The translations under genes were made by a program, and so were the position numbers. Positions 54,636 to 59,613 of a DNA stretch of 64,000 nucleotides are shown one piece after another; position 1 is the first letter of the stretch; each line of letters opens with the position of its first letter. Below the pieces are notes generated by a model. The model saw only the letters and a list, made by a program, of their open reading frames with translations. It searched no databases and was not told the DNA's origin. Origin of the DNA: Blastomonas sp. SL216 (GTDB lineage: Bacteria > Pseudomonadota > Alphaproteobacteria > Sphingomonadales > Sphingomonadaceae); assembly GCA_026625625.1 (NCBI GenBank), contig CP113055.1, forward strand, positions 560,501-624,500. The letters run 5' to 3'.

Positions 54636-55055
54636 TTACCCCGTATATCGCCCCGCCGTCTCGCGGATCAGCGCGATCATGTTGGGAATGCCCTGGGTGC
54701 GGTTGGAGGAGAGCTGGTTCTTCAGATCGAATGGGGCGAGCGCGCCCTCGATGTCGGCGCTGGCGACATCGCCCGGCGTCTTGTCCTGCACGGTGAGCAG
54801 GACGAGTGCGATAATGCCCTTGGTGATGGCCGCGTTGCTGTCAGCGAGGAAGTGCAAGGTGCCGTCGTCGGTGCGGGTGGGATAGACCCAGACGGAGGCG
54901 GAGCAGCCGCGGACGAGAGTCGCGTCGGTCTTCAGCGCATCGGGCATCGCATCGAGTGTTTTGCCGAGGTCGATGATCAGCCGATAGCGGTCATCGGCGT
55001 CCAGAAATTCATATTCTTCGGCCAGATCGGCAATGCTGGGGGCTGCTGTCGTCAT
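54636..55055 (-). CDS. sufE: SufE family Fe-S cluster assembly protein
   Basis: The 139-aa protein has the SufE signature YEFLDADDRYRLIIDLGKTLDAMPDAL followed by LVRGCSASVWVYP, with the sulfur-accepting Cys. The C-terminal region NQLSSNRTQGIPNMIALIRE is typical. SufE carries persulfide sulfur from SufS to the scaffold. No SufS or Suf operon is nearby. It lies 54 bp downstream of the last small gene of the psp locus on the same strand, so read-through from the stress operon is possible. Confidence 0.93.
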   Translation of the reverse strand: MTTAAPSIADLAEEYEFLDADDRYRLIIDLGKTLDAMPDALKTDATLVRGCSASVWVYPTRTDDGTLHFLADSNAAITKGIIALVLLTVQDKTPGDVASADIEGALAPFDLKNQLSSNRTQGIPNMIALIRETAGRYTG

Positions 55056-55109: not shown

Positions 55110-55349
55110 TTACAGCTCCACTCCGGCCGCGATCGCTTCCAGCTTGCGGATGCGTTCCTTGAGGTCCGCAATCTCGATGCGCGAATGGGTGGAAGGCGAT
55201 CCGCCATCGTGCATCGGTGCGTGCGATTCGATCTCGTGGCGCTTGAATGCCAGCCAATCGCGCCAGCCGCGCAATGCGGTGGAGGAGACCAGTGCAATGG
55301 CCAGCAAGGCACTGGTTGCCACAGTCATGTAGAGATAGGCGCTTTCCAT
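55110..55349 (-). CDS. Small membrane/coiled-coil protein of the psp array (copy 5)
   Basis: The 79-aa protein has an N-terminal membrane helix (LYMTVATSALLAIALVSSTAL), a basic WRDWLAFKRHEIES segment, a polar linker and a C-terminal coiled coil ending DLKERIRKLEAIA. This last element resembles the L-E-R-I motif of its neighbours. It lacks the L-x-x-E-I-E-x-L-R tail of the others. It is the last gene of the array, 51 bp after the preceding one. Function unknown. Confidence 0.65.
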   Translation of the reverse strand: MESAYLYMTVATSALLAIALVSSTALRGWRDWLAFKRHEIESHAPMHDGGSPSTHSRIEIADLKERIRKLEAIAAGVEL

Positions 55350-55400
55350 GATATTACCCTTTACGGCCCCCGCCGCCCGGTGGATGGTTCATGCGCCGCG

Positions 55401-55670
55401 TCAGCGGTCGCGCAGTTTCTCGATTTCAAGGCTGAGGTCGCTCGACTGGCGCTGATCGGTGATGACACGCTCCAGCACTTGGACGCGCTCCTTCAGCGCA
55501 CGGACGTCCTCGCGCAGACGCTGGGTCTCGGCGGTATCAACCGGAACGGCCAGCGTTTCCTTGCCTGTGCCGTCTTCCAATATGCCGTGCTTGGCGCGGT
55601 AACGGGTCTTCAGCACGTTGGCGACCATCACGATCAGCACTATGCCGATCACCATTTCAAACGGGTTCAT
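55401..55670 (-). CDS. Small membrane/coiled-coil protein of the psp array (copy 4)
   Basis: The 89-aa protein has an N-terminal helix (MVIGIVLIVMVANVLKTRYR), then AKHGILEDGTGK, which echoes the AKHGYPLED of copy 1. A coiled coil follows (LREDVRALKERVQVLERVITD), and the C-terminus ends LSLEIEKLRDR. The L-E-R-V-I-T-D segment matches PspB's V-E-R-I-I-S-A-D. It is probably an inner-membrane protein with a cytoplasmic coiled coil. Gap to the previous gene is 28 bp. Confidence 0.75.
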   Translation of the reverse strand: MNPFEMVIGIVLIVMVANVLKTRYRAKHGILEDGTGKETLAVPVDTAETQRLREDVRALKERVQVLERVITDQRQSSDLSLEIEKLRDR

Positions 55671-55698
55671 CTGCGTTTTCCTTCAACGTCTCTCTTGT

Positions 55699-55959
55699 TC
55701 AGCTCAGCTGCTTGGTGCGCAGATCCTCGATCTGCTGGGCCAGGTCGTCGCGGCCGCGACCGTCAGTGATGATGCGCTCCAGCGTGCGGACCCGCTGTTC
55801 CAGCTTGTCGTTGACCGGTGGACGTTCCAGTGCGCGGGCCTTGGTCAGCTCGATTTCCAGTTCCAACGTCTTGCGCTTGTGGTGGGTCCAGATGGCCAGC
55901 CCGCCAATGGCGAACGGTGCAATCGGGATGAGAGCGAAGATAAAGTCGAAGTCGAACAT
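55699..55959 (-). CDS. Small membrane/coiled-coil protein of the psp array (copy 3)
   Basis: The 86-aa protein has an N-terminal membrane helix (IFALIPIAPFAIGGLAIW), a short basic stretch HHKRK, and a coiled coil with EQRVRTLERIITDGRGRDDLAQQIEDLRTK. The L-E-R-I-I-T-D and L-x-x-Q-I-E-x-L-R elements match the neighbouring copies. No catalytic motif is present. The start has a good ribosome site on the minus strand (GGGG a few bases upstream). Confidence 0.75.
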   Translation of the reverse strand: MFDFDFIFALIPIAPFAIGGLAIWTHHKRKTLELEIELTKARALERPPVNDKLEQRVRTLERIITDGRGRDDLAQQIEDLRTKQLS

Positions 55960-55984
55960 GGATGTGCCCCCAGGAGTAAAAGTG

Positions 55985-56311
55985 TCAGTTAGCCCGCTTG
56001 TCGCGCAGGGCCTCGATTTCGTGCGTCAGGCGGTGCGCGTCATCGGTGACGATGCGTTCGACATTGCCCAGACGGTCCTTGATCGATCCCAGTTCGGCGC
56101 GCAGCTGCGCATTTTCCTGGCTCAGCAGCTTGATCCGCTCGACCGATTCCTGATCGGTCTTGGGATAGACCGGCTTGCCCCAGCTGTTTTCCAGCGGATA
56201 GCCGTTCCTGATCCGCATCCAGGTGGTGAGTACCCAGCCTGCGGTGATCGCGATGAACGGGATCGCAAGGGCGGGCGCAAGCGCTTGTATCATTGCAACC
56301 TTGTCCATCAC
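55985..56311 (-). CDS. Small membrane/coiled-coil protein of the psp array (copy 2)
   Basis: The 108-aa protein has an N-terminal membrane helix (LAIPFIAITAGWVLTTWMR), then RNGYPLENSWGKPVYPK, a clear duplicate of the corresponding part of copy 1 (W-V-[IL]-T-T-W-[IM]-R-x-[RK]-[HN]-G-Y-P-L-E). A coiled coil follows (RIKLLSQENAQLRAELGSIKD), then NVERIVTD and HRLTHEIEALRDK. It overlaps copy 1 by 4 bp, so the two are translationally coupled. Confidence 0.8.
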   Translation of the reverse strand: MMDKVAMIQALAPALAIPFIAITAGWVLTTWMRIRNGYPLENSWGKPVYPKTDQESVERIKLLSQENAQLRAELGSIKDRLGNVERIVTDDAHRLTHEIEALRDKRAN

Positions 56312-56628
56312 GCGGGGTCCTTTTCGATGCGCAGGCGTTCGATTTCATCGGCCAGCCGGACGCTGGAACTGTTGGCGTCGGTGGCAATGCGTTCCAGCAC
56401 TGCGATCCGCTCTTCCAGTCTTCCGATCTTGCCGACCAGTTGCTCGTTTTCATTGGTGAGCAGCGATATTTTTCGATCAGCGTCGGGATCGCTTCGTTCA
56501 ATGACTTTGCCAGTCCACTGATCTTCCAGCGGATACCCATGCTTGGCCCGGATCCAGGTCGTGATGACCCAGGCACCCATGGACAGCATGATGATCGAAA
56601 GGACGAAACCCGGTCCACCCCAGCTCAT
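56308..56628 (-). CDS. Small membrane/coiled-coil protein of the psp array (copy 1)
   Basis: The 106-aa protein has an N-terminal membrane helix (FVLSIIMLSMGAWVITTWIR), the segment AKHGYPLEDQW, a coiled coil (KISLLTNENEQLVGKIGRLEERIAVLERIATD) and a C-terminal RLADEIERLRIEK. The end of PspC reads RLADEIESLR, almost identical. It follows pspC by 39 bp. I infer an inner-membrane protein that could contact PspA, PspB or PspC through the coiled coil. No experimental function is known to me. Confidence 0.8.
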   Translation of the reverse strand: MSWGGPGFVLSIIMLSMGAWVITTWIRAKHGYPLEDQWTGKVIERSDPDADRKISLLTNENEQLVGKIGRLEERIAVLERIATDANSSSVRLADEIERLRIEKDPA

Positions 56629-56667
56629 GATATTCTCCTGATACCTTGTTGTTTTAGGTGCCGCGTG

Positions 56668-57075
56668 TCAGCGCAGGCTTTCGATCTCGTCGGCCAGCCG
56701 CGTGTTCTTGGCGGTGTAGAACAGCTCCACATCAGCCAGGCGACGGTCGATTTCGCGGAACCGGGCCTTGACGTCGCGGGCGGTGCGGGTCGGGGACTGG
56801 CGCACACCCTGCCAGAATTTCTGGTCCTGATCGTCGGTATAGAGGTGCGAAGGCTTTTTCTCGGCGAACATGCCCATCAGGAAATAGCCCACCAGCGCCC
56901 AGCCGGTCATCAGCGTGACGAGAACGGTGGCAACGCGGATCCAGACCACATCGATACCGGTATAGTCGGCGATTCCGGCGCACACGCCCATGAACTTGCC
57001 GTTCTGCTTGTCGCGATAGAACTTGGTCTTGCGCGGGGCAGGGGCGTCATATTTGTACTTGTCCAGCCGGCTCAT
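56668..57075 (-). CDS. pspC: Envelope stress response protein PspC
   Basis: The 135-aa protein has the PspC domain: FYRDKQNGKFMGVCAGIADYTGIDVVWIRVATVLVTLMTGWALVGYFLM, with a G-x-C-x-G-I-A-x-Y motif and membrane helix. An extended C-terminal region follows with a helical stretch and the end NTRLADEIESLR. That tail is not part of the usual PspC domain but is shared with the downstream small proteins. In E. coli PspC with PspB senses inner-membrane stress and binds PspA. The start overlaps the pspB stop by 4 bp. Confidence 0.92.
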   Translation of the reverse strand: MSRLDKYKYDAPAPRKTKFYRDKQNGKFMGVCAGIADYTGIDVVWIRVATVLVTLMTGWALVGYFLMGMFAEKKPSHLYTDDQDQKFWQGVRQSPTRTARDVKARFREIDRRLADVELFYTAKNTRLADEIESLR

Positions 57076-57374
57076 TTCCTCACCCTTTCCTTCAGCATGC
57101 GCTCGACCTGCTCCAGGCCGTAGTCGTCTTGGTCATCAGAGCTGGTCAGCCGCGCCGGGCGCCAGTCAGGATTGTCGGCCGAAATGATCCGCTCGACGGT
57201 GTCCATGCGATCATCCAGGCGGCGTGCCATCGCATGCAGTTCTTCCAGCAGCGTTTCGTCCGACGTCGTCAGCGTCGCTGCGGTCTTCCATTTGGTTATG
57301 TAGTGAAAGATCAGCCACGGCAGCCCGATGAACAGCATGCCGACGACGAAGATGGGGACCAGAATGTCTTCCAT
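57072..57374 (-). CDS. pspB: Envelope stress response protein PspB
   Basis: The 100-aa protein has an N-terminal membrane helix (ILVPIFVVGMLFIGLPWLIF), the H-Y-x-T-K-W element, and a coiled-coil region ARRLDDRMDTVERIISADNPDWR. The last part matches PspB's usual I-L-D-x-E-x-P-x-W-R. The C-terminal extension (about 25 residues) is longer than in E. coli PspB. PspB and PspC transmit membrane stress to PspA. The gene lies 4 bp after pspA. Confidence 0.9.
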   Translation of the reverse strand: MEDILVPIFVVGMLFIGLPWLIFHYITKWKTAATLTTSDETLLEELHAMARRLDDRMDTVERIISADNPDWRPARLTSSDDQDDYGLEQVERMLKERVRK

Positions 57375-57378
57375 TGTC

Positions 57379-58065
57379 TCAACCCTCCTTCTTCAGCGCG
57401 CGCTTCATGGCTTCGAGCTCCTCGTCCACCTTGTCGCTATCGGCCAGGGCGGCGAATTCGTCGTCCAGGCTGCGCTGGCCCAGCACCTTGCGCTCGTCCT
57501 CGGCCATGCCCAGTGCATCGGCGCGGCCTTCGGCCATGTCGACGCGGCGCTCGAGCAGGTCGAAGCGGCTGAATGCCTCGCGGACCTTGTCGCCATTGTA
57601 CATGGTGCGCAGCTTGACGCGGTTTTCGGCGCTTTCCAGGCGGCTCATGATGTTGTTCTGGCGCATCCGGGCCTCGCGCAGCTTGGCCTGCAGCTTGGCG
57701 ATATCCTGTTCCGAAGCGCGCAGCGCATCATCCAGCACCGCGATTTCGACATTGAGCTGATCGGCCATATCGGCAGCCTTTTTCTTTTCCAGCAGCGCGG
57801 CGCGGGCCAGGTCTTCGCGGTTCTTGGACAGCGCCAGTTCGGCCTTTTCGGTCCAGTCCGCCTGAAGCTGCTCCAGCTTGCTGACGTGCCGCTTCATTTC
57901 CTTCTGGTCCGCGATGGTGCGGGCGGCAGAGGCGCGGACTTCGACCAGCGTCTCTTCCATTTCCAGGATGATCATGCGGATCATCTTTGCCGGGTCTTCG
58001 GCCTTGTCGAGCAGTTCGGTAACATTCGCTGCGATGATGTCGCGGGTGCGAGAGAAAATTCCCAT
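57379..58065 (-). CDS. pspA: Phage shock protein PspA
   Basis: The 228-aa protein is PspA/IM30: MGIFSRTRDIIAANVTELLDKAEDPAKMI at the N-terminus (amphipathic membrane-binding helix) followed by a long coiled coil to the end. The E-D-P-x-K-M-I region is diagnostic. PspA stabilises damaged inner membrane and, when stress is absent, binds and inhibits PspF. From the ATG at 58065 the length is normal. A strong hairpin lies upstream, after the 66-aa gene. Confidence 0.95.
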   Translation of the reverse strand: MGIFSRTRDIIAANVTELLDKAEDPAKMIRMIILEMEETLVEVRASAARTIADQKEMKRHVSKLEQLQADWTEKAELALSKNREDLARAALLEKKKAADMADQLNVEIAVLDDALRASEQDIAKLQAKLREARMRQNNIMSRLESAENRVKLRTMYNGDKVREAFSRFDLLERRVDMAEGRADALGMAEDERKVLGQRSLDDEFAALADSDKVDEELEAMKRALKKEG

Positions 58066-58191: not shown

Positions 58192-58392
58192 TCAGGCAAG
58201 GTACCGGACGGAAACGATGGAGCGAGCATCTCCGTTGTGGTGAACGGGCGAGGCGGCGGCCTCGATGCTGGCAAAGGCGGTCAGAAACAGCGTGGTGATC
58301 AGCGCCAGCGCGGCGACCGTGGTGACCAGCGTGGACTTGAGGACATTGTCCTGATCCTGGCTGTTCGCGTTCGAAGCATTGGTGGTTTTCAC
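58192..58392 (-). CDS. Small membrane protein, first gene of the psp operon
   Basis: From a GTG at 58392 (GGGAGA 6 bases upstream) the product is 66 aa. It has a polar N-terminus rich in Asn, Gln and Asp, one hydrophobic helix (STLVTTVAALALITTLFLTAF), and a short tail with HHNGDARSIVSVRYLA. I do not recognise it. It is placed directly behind the sigma-54 promoter and before pspA, so it should be strongly stress-induced. The frame is open upstream with an ATG at 58455, but that ATG overlaps the promoter. Confidence 0.65.
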   Translation of the reverse strand: MKTTNASNANSQDQDNVLKSTLVTTVAALALITTLFLTAFASIEAAASPVHHNGDARSIVSVRYLA

Positions 58393-58438
58393 TGTCTTTC
58401 TCCCTAGAACCGCTTTGTGTCGGTGTTGTCCCATGCAT

Positions 58439-58454
58439 TGCAGAGAGCGTGCCA
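58439..58454 (-). promoter_or_regulatory. Sigma-54 promoter of the psp operon
   Basis: The minus strand reads TGGCACG-CTCT-CTGCA, which matches the consensus TGGCACG-N4-TTGCA at all but one base, with exact GG and GC spacing. The predicted transcription start is near 58428, 36 bases before the GTG of the 66-aa gene. pspF, a sigma-54 activator, is transcribed in the opposite direction just beyond. Confidence 0.88.
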
Positions 58455-58485: not shown

Positions 58486-58554
58486 GAAAATTCGATGAAC
58501 GCGACCGTTGGTTAGGATTGCCATGAGTTGGGATTTTGCACTATCTCTTGGCGC

Positions 58555-59613
58555 ATGGAACGGGGCAGTCAGTTCATCGGGGAGTCGGGGGCGTTTCTGG
58601 ACGCGGTCGAACGCGCCAGCCGCGCGGCGATGCTCAACCGTCCGGTGCTGGTCATCGGCGAGCGCGGGACGGGCAAGGAGCTGATCGCAGAGCGCCTGCA
58701 TCGCCTGTCCTCGCGATGGGACGGCCCGCTGATCACCTTGAACTGCGCCGCATTGCCCGAAACGCTGATCGAAGCCGAATTGTTCGGCCACGAGGCAGGC
58801 GCGTTTACCGGCGCGACCCGTGCACGCCAGGGCCGGTTCGAGGAAGCCGATGGCGGCACGCTGTTCCTCGACGAACTGGCGACATTGAGCATGGGCGCGC
58901 AGGAGCGCCTGCTGCGCGCGGTCGAATATGGCGAGGTGACGCGCATCGGCTCCTCGCGCTCGATCAAGGTCGATGTGCGCATCGTCGCGGCGACCAACGA
59001 GCATCTGCCCGATCTGGTCGACAATGGCCGCTTCCGCGCCGACCTTCTCGACCGGCTGTCCTTTGAGGTTGTCACACTGCCGCCGCTGCGCGCGCGCGAA
59101 GGCGACGTCATGGTGCTGGCCGATTTCTTCGGGCGGCGCATGGCGGCCGAGCTCGATTGGGACCGCTGGCCCGGTTTCGGGGTGATGGCGACCGATGCGA
59201 TGAAGCGGCACAGCTGGCCCGGCAATGTCCGCGAGTTGCGCAATGTCGTCGAACGCGCGGTCTATCGCTGGGACGATTTCGAGCGCCCGGTCGATCATAT
59301 CGTGTTCGATCCTTTCGAATCGCCGTGGAAACCGAGGGCCGCGGCGCGCTCTTCGGCGCAGGCCGACGCCTCGCCGTGCGACGAGGTGATCGATGCCGCG
59401 CTGTCCGATCCCGGCGTGCGTGCGACGCTCGACCAGACGATGAACTTCGATGCAGTCGACGATCTTCGCGGTGCCGTCGACGCGCATGAAAAGCGCATCC
59501 TTCAGGCAGCTCTGGCCCGCCACCGCTACAACCAGCGCCAGACCGCCAAGGCGCTGGGCCTCAGCTATGACCAGCTGCGCCATTGCCTGAAAAAGCACGA
59601 TTTGCTGGGGTGA
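58555..59613 (+). CDS. pspF: Sigma-54-dependent activator PspF
   Basis: The 352-aa protein is a bare AAA+ sigma-54 activator without an N-terminal sensor domain, like PspF. Motifs are LVIGERGTGKELIAERLH (Walker A), the sigma-54 contact loop EAGAFTGATRARQGR (GAFTGA), DGGTLFLDELATLS (Walker B) and the Fis-type C-terminal helix-turn-helix NQRQTAKALGLSYDQLRHCLKKH. The start at 58555 (MERGSQFIGESGAFLDAVERAS) is the expected N-terminus. It should drive the divergent psp promoter and be inhibited by PspA. roxA follows 41 bp downstream. Confidence 0.93.
   Translation: MERGSQFIGESGAFLDAVERASRAAMLNRPVLVIGERGTGKELIAERLHRLSSRWDGPLITLNCAALPETLIEAELFGHEAGAFTGATRARQGRFEEADGGTLFLDELATLSMGAQERLLRAVEYGEVTRIGSSRSIKVDVRIVAATNEHLPDLVDNGRFRADLLDRLSFEVVTLPPLRAREGDVMVLADFFGRRMAAELDWDRWPGFGVMATDAMKRHSWPGNVRELRNVVERAVYRWDDFERPVDHIVFDPFESPWKPRAAARSSAQADASPCDEVIDAALSDPGVRATLDQTMNFDAVDDLRGAVDAHEKRILQAALARHRYNQRQTAKALGLSYDQLRHCLKKHDLLG

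Follow-up and report, generated by a model that had tools for sequence, protein, structure and literature searches.

An array of small single-helix membrane protein genes attached to the phage-shock operon of Blastomonas sp. SL216 and other Sphingomonadaceae

The 64,000-nucleotide stretch of the Blastomonas sp. SL216 genome analyzed here (CP113055.1, positions 560,501 to 624,500; hereafter the window) carries a phage-shock operon in which pspA, pspB, and pspC are followed by five small genes (copies 1 to 5, assigned to families F1 to F5). PspA is a membrane-repair protein, a bacterial ESCRT-III, and PspB and PspC are membrane-stress sensors. The five genes are proposed to encode accessory inner-membrane subunits of the Sphingomonadaceae phage-shock system. 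We lean, with slightly more confidence than doubt, towards the reading that the array supplies accessory subunits of the PspBC complex, adding tails able to contact PspA.

The five array genes and their products

The host genome is closed (3.86 Mb), and the closest relative of its psp locus is that of Blastomonas/Sphingomonas ursincola (PspA 95–98% identical). On the minus strand, the order is a sigma54-type promoter, a leader open reading frame (ORF), pspA, pspB, pspC, copies 1–5, and sufE, with pspF divergent. The features, in window positions, are as follows.

56308..56628, minus strand: copy 1, family F1, 106 amino acids (aa), one transmembrane (TM) helix and a coil, tail RLADEIERLR
55985..56308 (ATG start, 107 aa) or 55985..56311 (GTG start, 108 aa), minus strand: copy 2, family F2, tail LTHEIEALR
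55699..55959, minus strand: copy 3, family F3, 86 aa, tail LAQQIEDLR
55401..55670, minus strand: copy 4, family F4, 89 aa, tail LSLEIEKLR
55110..55349, minus strand: copy 5, family F5, 79 aa, TM helix and short coil ending KLEAIAAGVEL
56668..57075, minus strand: pspC, with the tail RLADEIESLR, common to copies 1–4, at its end (TIGR02978, 130 bits, cut-off 104)
57072..57374, minus strand: pspB, canonical (TIGR02976, 91 bits, cut-off 51.7; PF06667, E 2e-26)
57379..58065, minus strand: pspA (TIGR02977, 266 bits, cut-off 243)
58192..58395, minus strand: leader ORF of about 66 aa, signal- or TM-like, in the promoter–pspA interval, outside the array
58440..58454, minus strand: sigma54-type promoter TGGCACGCTCTCTGC, upstream of the leader ORF and pspA (sequence pattern)
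58528..59613, plus strand: pspF, the sigma54 activator, divergent from the operon (NCBIfam TIGR02974, 489 bits, cut-off 444)
54636..55055, minus strand: sufE, a conserved neighbour and the array boundary in most loci (PF02657, E 4e-33)

The original prediction had described five consecutive small ORFs of 79–108 aa downstream of pspABC; all were recovered on the minus strand as described, and all score as coding by codon usage. The mean ratios of nonsynonymous to synonymous substitutions (dN/dS) within Blastomonas were 0.08, 0.24, 0.17, 0.13, and 0.12 for copies 1 to 5, 0.14 for pspB, and 0.08 for pspC; all five array genes are under purifying selection. Each product has a single hydrophobic N-terminal segment followed by a C-terminal coil, which corresponds to the PspB-type architecture. 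Since positive residues follow the membrane helix, the coil and C-terminus are predicted by the positive-inside rule to lie in the cytoplasm. The AlphaFold2 models comprised two helices in all, at residues 3–35 and 53–106 in copy 2 and at residues 2–43 and 54–75 in copy 5, both with a mean predicted local distance difference test (pLDDT) score of 86.

The motif L-x-x-[EQ]-I-E-x-L-R, with which four copies had been said to end, is present in copies 1–4 near the C-terminus, but it is not exactly terminal, with 2–6 residues following it; PspC ends exactly with LADEIESLR. As had been noted, the tail letters of PspC (RLADEIESLR) and copy 1 (RLADEIERLR) are nearly identical in this genome. The tail core occurred in 270 of the 285 F1–F4 proteins from 77 loci versus 5 of 1425 heptad-preserving shuffles and 0 of 21 FtsB sequences, which is far beyond chance; the regular expressions for the array motif miss most PspB and many PspC sequences and therefore serve as a chance test only. 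The EIExLR tail was not present in copy 5. The claimed similarity of copies 1 and 2 was borne out (40% identity, E 4e-22), and so was its fainter trace in copy 4, which matches copy 1 at E 2e-10.

The array has the properties of a phage-shock operon segment: the genes lie on the same strand with tight spacing (gaps of 39, −1, 25, 28, and 51 nucleotides from pspC to copy 5), downstream of a PspF/sigma54 promoter, and in conserved synteny in 73 complete loci. No terminator-like sites were found on the minus strand of the psp gene row. The sigma54 pattern upstream of pspA was detected in 75 of 80 loci and in 1 of 80 shuffled sequences.

Relationship to PspB and PspC

Like PspB (PF06667/TIGR02976), the array proteins are small, with one N-terminal TM helix, a predicted cytoplasmic coil, and an R-x4-E-x-I tail core, and are encoded in the same operon. 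They differ from it in having T-D...EIE-x-L-R and in lacking both FHYITKW after the helix and the ADNP-x-W-R end; in the alignments of F1–F4 (A1–A4) compared with A6, the conserved PspB end (LDAE/ADNP-x-W-R) was not found. With the PspC tail (C-terminal part of TIGR02978) the array shares the spacing R-x4-E-x3-T-[DS]-...-L-x-x-[EQ]-[IF]-x-x-L; alignment and motif count recovered R-x4-E-x3-T-[DS] ... EI-x-x-L in the F1–F4 tails, and hhalign of the array families with the PspC end gave 32–95%. The array element [LV]-E-R-[IV]-x-[TS]-D had been equated with V-E-R-I-I-S-A-D of PspB; this did not hold, as the PspB element is one residue longer and out of register, and it is the PspC spacing that fits. 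The array proteins differ from PspC in having one membrane helix only and no PspC domain (no match to PF04024 in any of copies 1–5).

In hhalign comparisons with PspB from outside Sphingomonadales, F1, F3, and F4 each reached 95% over most of PspB, versus 1–8% for reversed controls. The values among F1–F4 were 98–99.9%, including 99.9% between F1 and F2. In a six-frame whole-genome search of 36 sampled Sphingomonadaceae with the curated PspB model, the extra matches in about half of the genomes were array genes; the best second match inside the array was at 2.7e-10 (G329), and another was at 2.4e-7 (G145). The F3 and F4 profiles matched canonical PspB of other orders (E about 5e-4), and in the window's own genome profiles A3 and A4 matched array genes only. 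Among 18,950 NCBIfam models, those matched by the most members were PspB, with 23 of 26 F3 members and 15 of 26 F4 members, and PspC, with 22 of 26 F3 members and 10 of 26 F1 members; PspB also headed the list in the Pfam scan of F4 members. A sequence search of the PDB with PspB and PspC returned no solved relative.

Coil composition alone as the source of the similarity was countered for F1, F3, and F4 by the reversed profiles, the heptad shuffles, and the FtsB comparison. At the level of sequence profiles, F1–F4 show homology with one another and a more distant one with PspB, beyond coil composition. They appear as PspB relatives with a PspC-type tail end; since no window copy exceeds a curated PspB cut-off (best 14.5 versus 51.7 bits for TIGR02976 and 13.8 versus 25.6 bits for PF06667), they are not to be filed as PspB. 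The idea that the whole array is PspB-like thus stands for copies 1–4, on profile-profile comparison and genome-wide model matches, and fails for copy 5, for which hhalign gave 3–17% with PspB.

Distribution and natural variants

PspA-anchored loci were collected from 80 genomes; in 77 loci the pspC–sufE interval held small genes, 390 in all, which grouped as F1+F2, F3, F4, F5, and rare extras. The 73 complete loci held 2–7 array genes each, and across all fully read loci the array ranged from 0 to 9 genes, with nine in G511 (L197). Local multiplication, as originally suggested, was not borne out: the best match of each copy outside the genus was a gene of the same family in another genus, rather than a sister copy from its own genome, which places the origin of the families before that of the genus. 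Judging from these matches, F1–F5 are ancient families and not local duplicates; recent local duplication was rejected on their orthology across genera. The related explanation, a recent neutral tandem duplication of pspB with no function of its own, would fit the 27 of 73 complete loci with at least two members of one family, but orthologous families across many genera, dN/dS values of 0.08–0.24, and the last position of F5 in 72 of 73 complete loci speak against it. This conservation already largely refutes the explanation, and it is hardly credible.

A family survey of 190 Sphingomonadaceae genomes from 89 genera detected pspB over the cut-off in 180, an array profile match in 179, and F5 in 166. 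Both pspB and the array were present in 177 genomes, in line with an array tied to the psp operon; 3 genomes had only pspB, 2 had only the array, and 8 had neither (Fisher p 2e-10, kinship ignored). The eight double-negative genomes come from five genera, so pspB and the array were jointly lost more than once. The two genomes with the array alone are G414, in which a contig end cuts the locus (L196), and G290. Within the wider order, F5 was found in 34 of 36 Sphingomonadaceae and in none of 84 genomes from other families, the majority of which carry pspB. The F4 profile, run against 240 genomes of the class, gave clear matches only in Sphingomonadaceae and in one other genome, G183.

Two kinds of variants may be informative about function. 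G290 (L159:1447-2907) encodes PspA, a PspC that stops before the tail, and F3 and F4 directly after pspC, with no pspB in the genome; here F3 and F4 may have naturally taken the place of PspB and the PspC tail. A second, unlinked locus composed of a small leader, pspA2, pspC2, and F5 was found in two genera, g213 (G332, G341, and G351) and g293 (G462), at L163:3213-4798, L164:1843-3382, L166:3038-4581, and L191:2599-4197. Its pspA2 encodes 258–273 aa, and neither pspB nor sufE lies alongside. Where both loci were read (G332, G341, and G462), the main locus retains other array genes but no F5. Elsewhere in the order, in families other than Sphingomonadaceae, pspABC is joined by a PspC-like gene and an F4-like gene (L150 and L156) or by an additional gene with a PspB tail (L155); in G175 (L107), from another family of the class, one extra gene has a PspC-type tail and one a PspB-type tail. 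The overall picture suggests a tail module carried on various single membrane helices beside pspC.

Several further observations concern neighbouring and rare genes. Leader ORFs of 42–66 aa, signal- or TM-like, occupy the promoter–pspA interval of many loci (L004, L072, L079, L191, and others); their sequence is poorly conserved and matches no family. Across the order, sufE is found beside or close to the psp operon, including in L149 and, without an array, in L152. A membrane protein of 51–53 aa (MFTLIVLGLIAWFAYRHFAKKKR...) is the first gene after pspC in 10 loci (including L011, L017, L022, L027, and L029), where it replaces or precedes copy 1. In G183 (L109:1210-1692), two tandem small TM-plus-coil genes, one of them F4-like (E 2e-18), lie beside a dUTPase-like gene about 80 kb from the psp operon of that genome. 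PspA carries an N-terminal extension of about 40–70 residues before MGIFSR in L160:509-1324, L161:367-1266, and L197:4811-5659, possibly through a start site misplaced by the gene caller. A psp array typical of Sphingomonadaceae occurs in L043 (RPSH01000019.1), a record entitled 'Bacillus sp. 2B10' that is probably misnamed or contaminated.

Proposed role of the array

The sigma54 site suggests that the array proteins would be made under membrane stress together with the psp operon, and by homology they may join PspB and PspC through their coils. In E. coli, induction and PspA binding both depend on the leucine zipper in the tail region of PspC (PMC3068692); in Yersinia, PspC binds PspA through its cytoplasmic end when the system is on, and PspB is always found with PspC (PMC5596341). 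The array tails would share the contacts of the PspB and PspC tails, which may be held together in the off state, with the PspC tail binding PspA in the on state. More subunits would then provide more docking sites for PspA at the membrane, and the differing membrane helices could tune the type of damage sensed. F5 would be a distinct partner, present in almost all genomes, that stays with PspA and PspC even in the second locus. As originally suggested, we infer a membrane complex for sensing or scaffolding, favoured by the linkage, the loss patterns, and the second locus.

Several results weigh against this reading. Coiled coils inflate profile scores, and the unrelated TM-plus-coil control FtsB, although at 0.2–10% with the other array families, reached 70% with F3. 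About 70% is accordingly the noise ceiling, so the direct link of F2 to PspB (60%, range 60–78%) is weak and rests on the firm link of F2 to F1. F5 is not detectably PspB-like; it is joined to the others through F3 and F4 only (92%), and its members had no consistent match among all NCBIfam models and none to PspB. By profile, three Sphingomonadaceae genomes have a psp operon without the array: G368, which retains F4 (L195), G421, which retains F5 (L193), and G400, in which the pspA–sufE interval fits pspB and pspC only (L194). Most other sampled Alphaproteobacteria also have a psp operon without the array, which is therefore not needed for Psp in general.

The array could instead be a separate small-protein module that shares only coil composition with PspB and PspC and is merely co-transcribed with psp while serving another envelope process, such as division or SufE-linked Fe-S supply. 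The individual Pfam and NCBIfam scores, weak and all under curated cut-offs, the value of F3 with FtsB, and the constant sufE neighbour would agree with this. Against it, PspB and PspC are the top families by members matched over all NCBIfam models, pspB and the array were lost jointly, F5 travels with pspA2-pspC2 to an unlinked locus without adjoining sufE, and sufE also stands beside pspABC where the array is absent (L152). A separate module thus seems quite improbable.

A silencing or buffering role, in which the array tails hold PspB and PspC off or compete with PspC for PspA and additional copies raise the induction threshold, draws on the resemblance of the array tails to the PspC tail. 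However, the array is probably induced with the operon, judging from the sigma54 site, so a pure off-state role would act late, and a positive role fits better with G290, which retains F3 and F4 without pspB or the PspC tail. Silencing is therefore rather unlikely, though a stronger candidate than a separate module, and more PspA docking is the preferred candidate for the net effect of the array tails. The more far-reaching proposal, that sphingomonads turned the PspB/PspC sensor into a combinatorial PspA scaffold of variable number, with interchangeable helices, one common tail, and F5 as a previously unrecognized and, in this family, near-universal core partner of PspA/PspC, is offered tentatively, as a possibility with less in its favour than PspA-contacting subunits as such.

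'PspB duplicates' in some psp operons were mentioned in one line by Ravi et al. 2024, who also reported that the C-terminus of PspC can be a divergent PspB (PMC11237479); the main text of that work does not cover an array, its families or copy-number range, F5, taxonomic limits, or a second locus. The main text of a 2022 Psp survey does not mention sphingomonads (PMC9239133). A search of the literature on psp in sphingomonads, which did not extend to subscription papers, turned up nothing on the array, F5, or the second locus. The example sequence of Ravi and colleagues, AOL22920.1, may be from a sphingomonad. In enterobacteria, PspF controls the small accessory membrane proteins PspD and PspG (PMC9239133). 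The array proteins resemble them as small accessory membrane proteins but showed no sequence relation to them in the family scans.

The way in which PspB and PspC detect membrane damage and recruit PspA has yet to be settled, in part because one essential pair does everything. With zero to nine natural variants bearing the same tail on different helices, the sphingomonad arrays offer material to separate the helix (sensing) from the tail (PspA binding), and G290, in which two array genes may stand in for pspB and the PspC tail, adds to it. These bacteria, a large group of environmental and biotechnological relevance, also provide F5 as a new candidate component of the Psp system.
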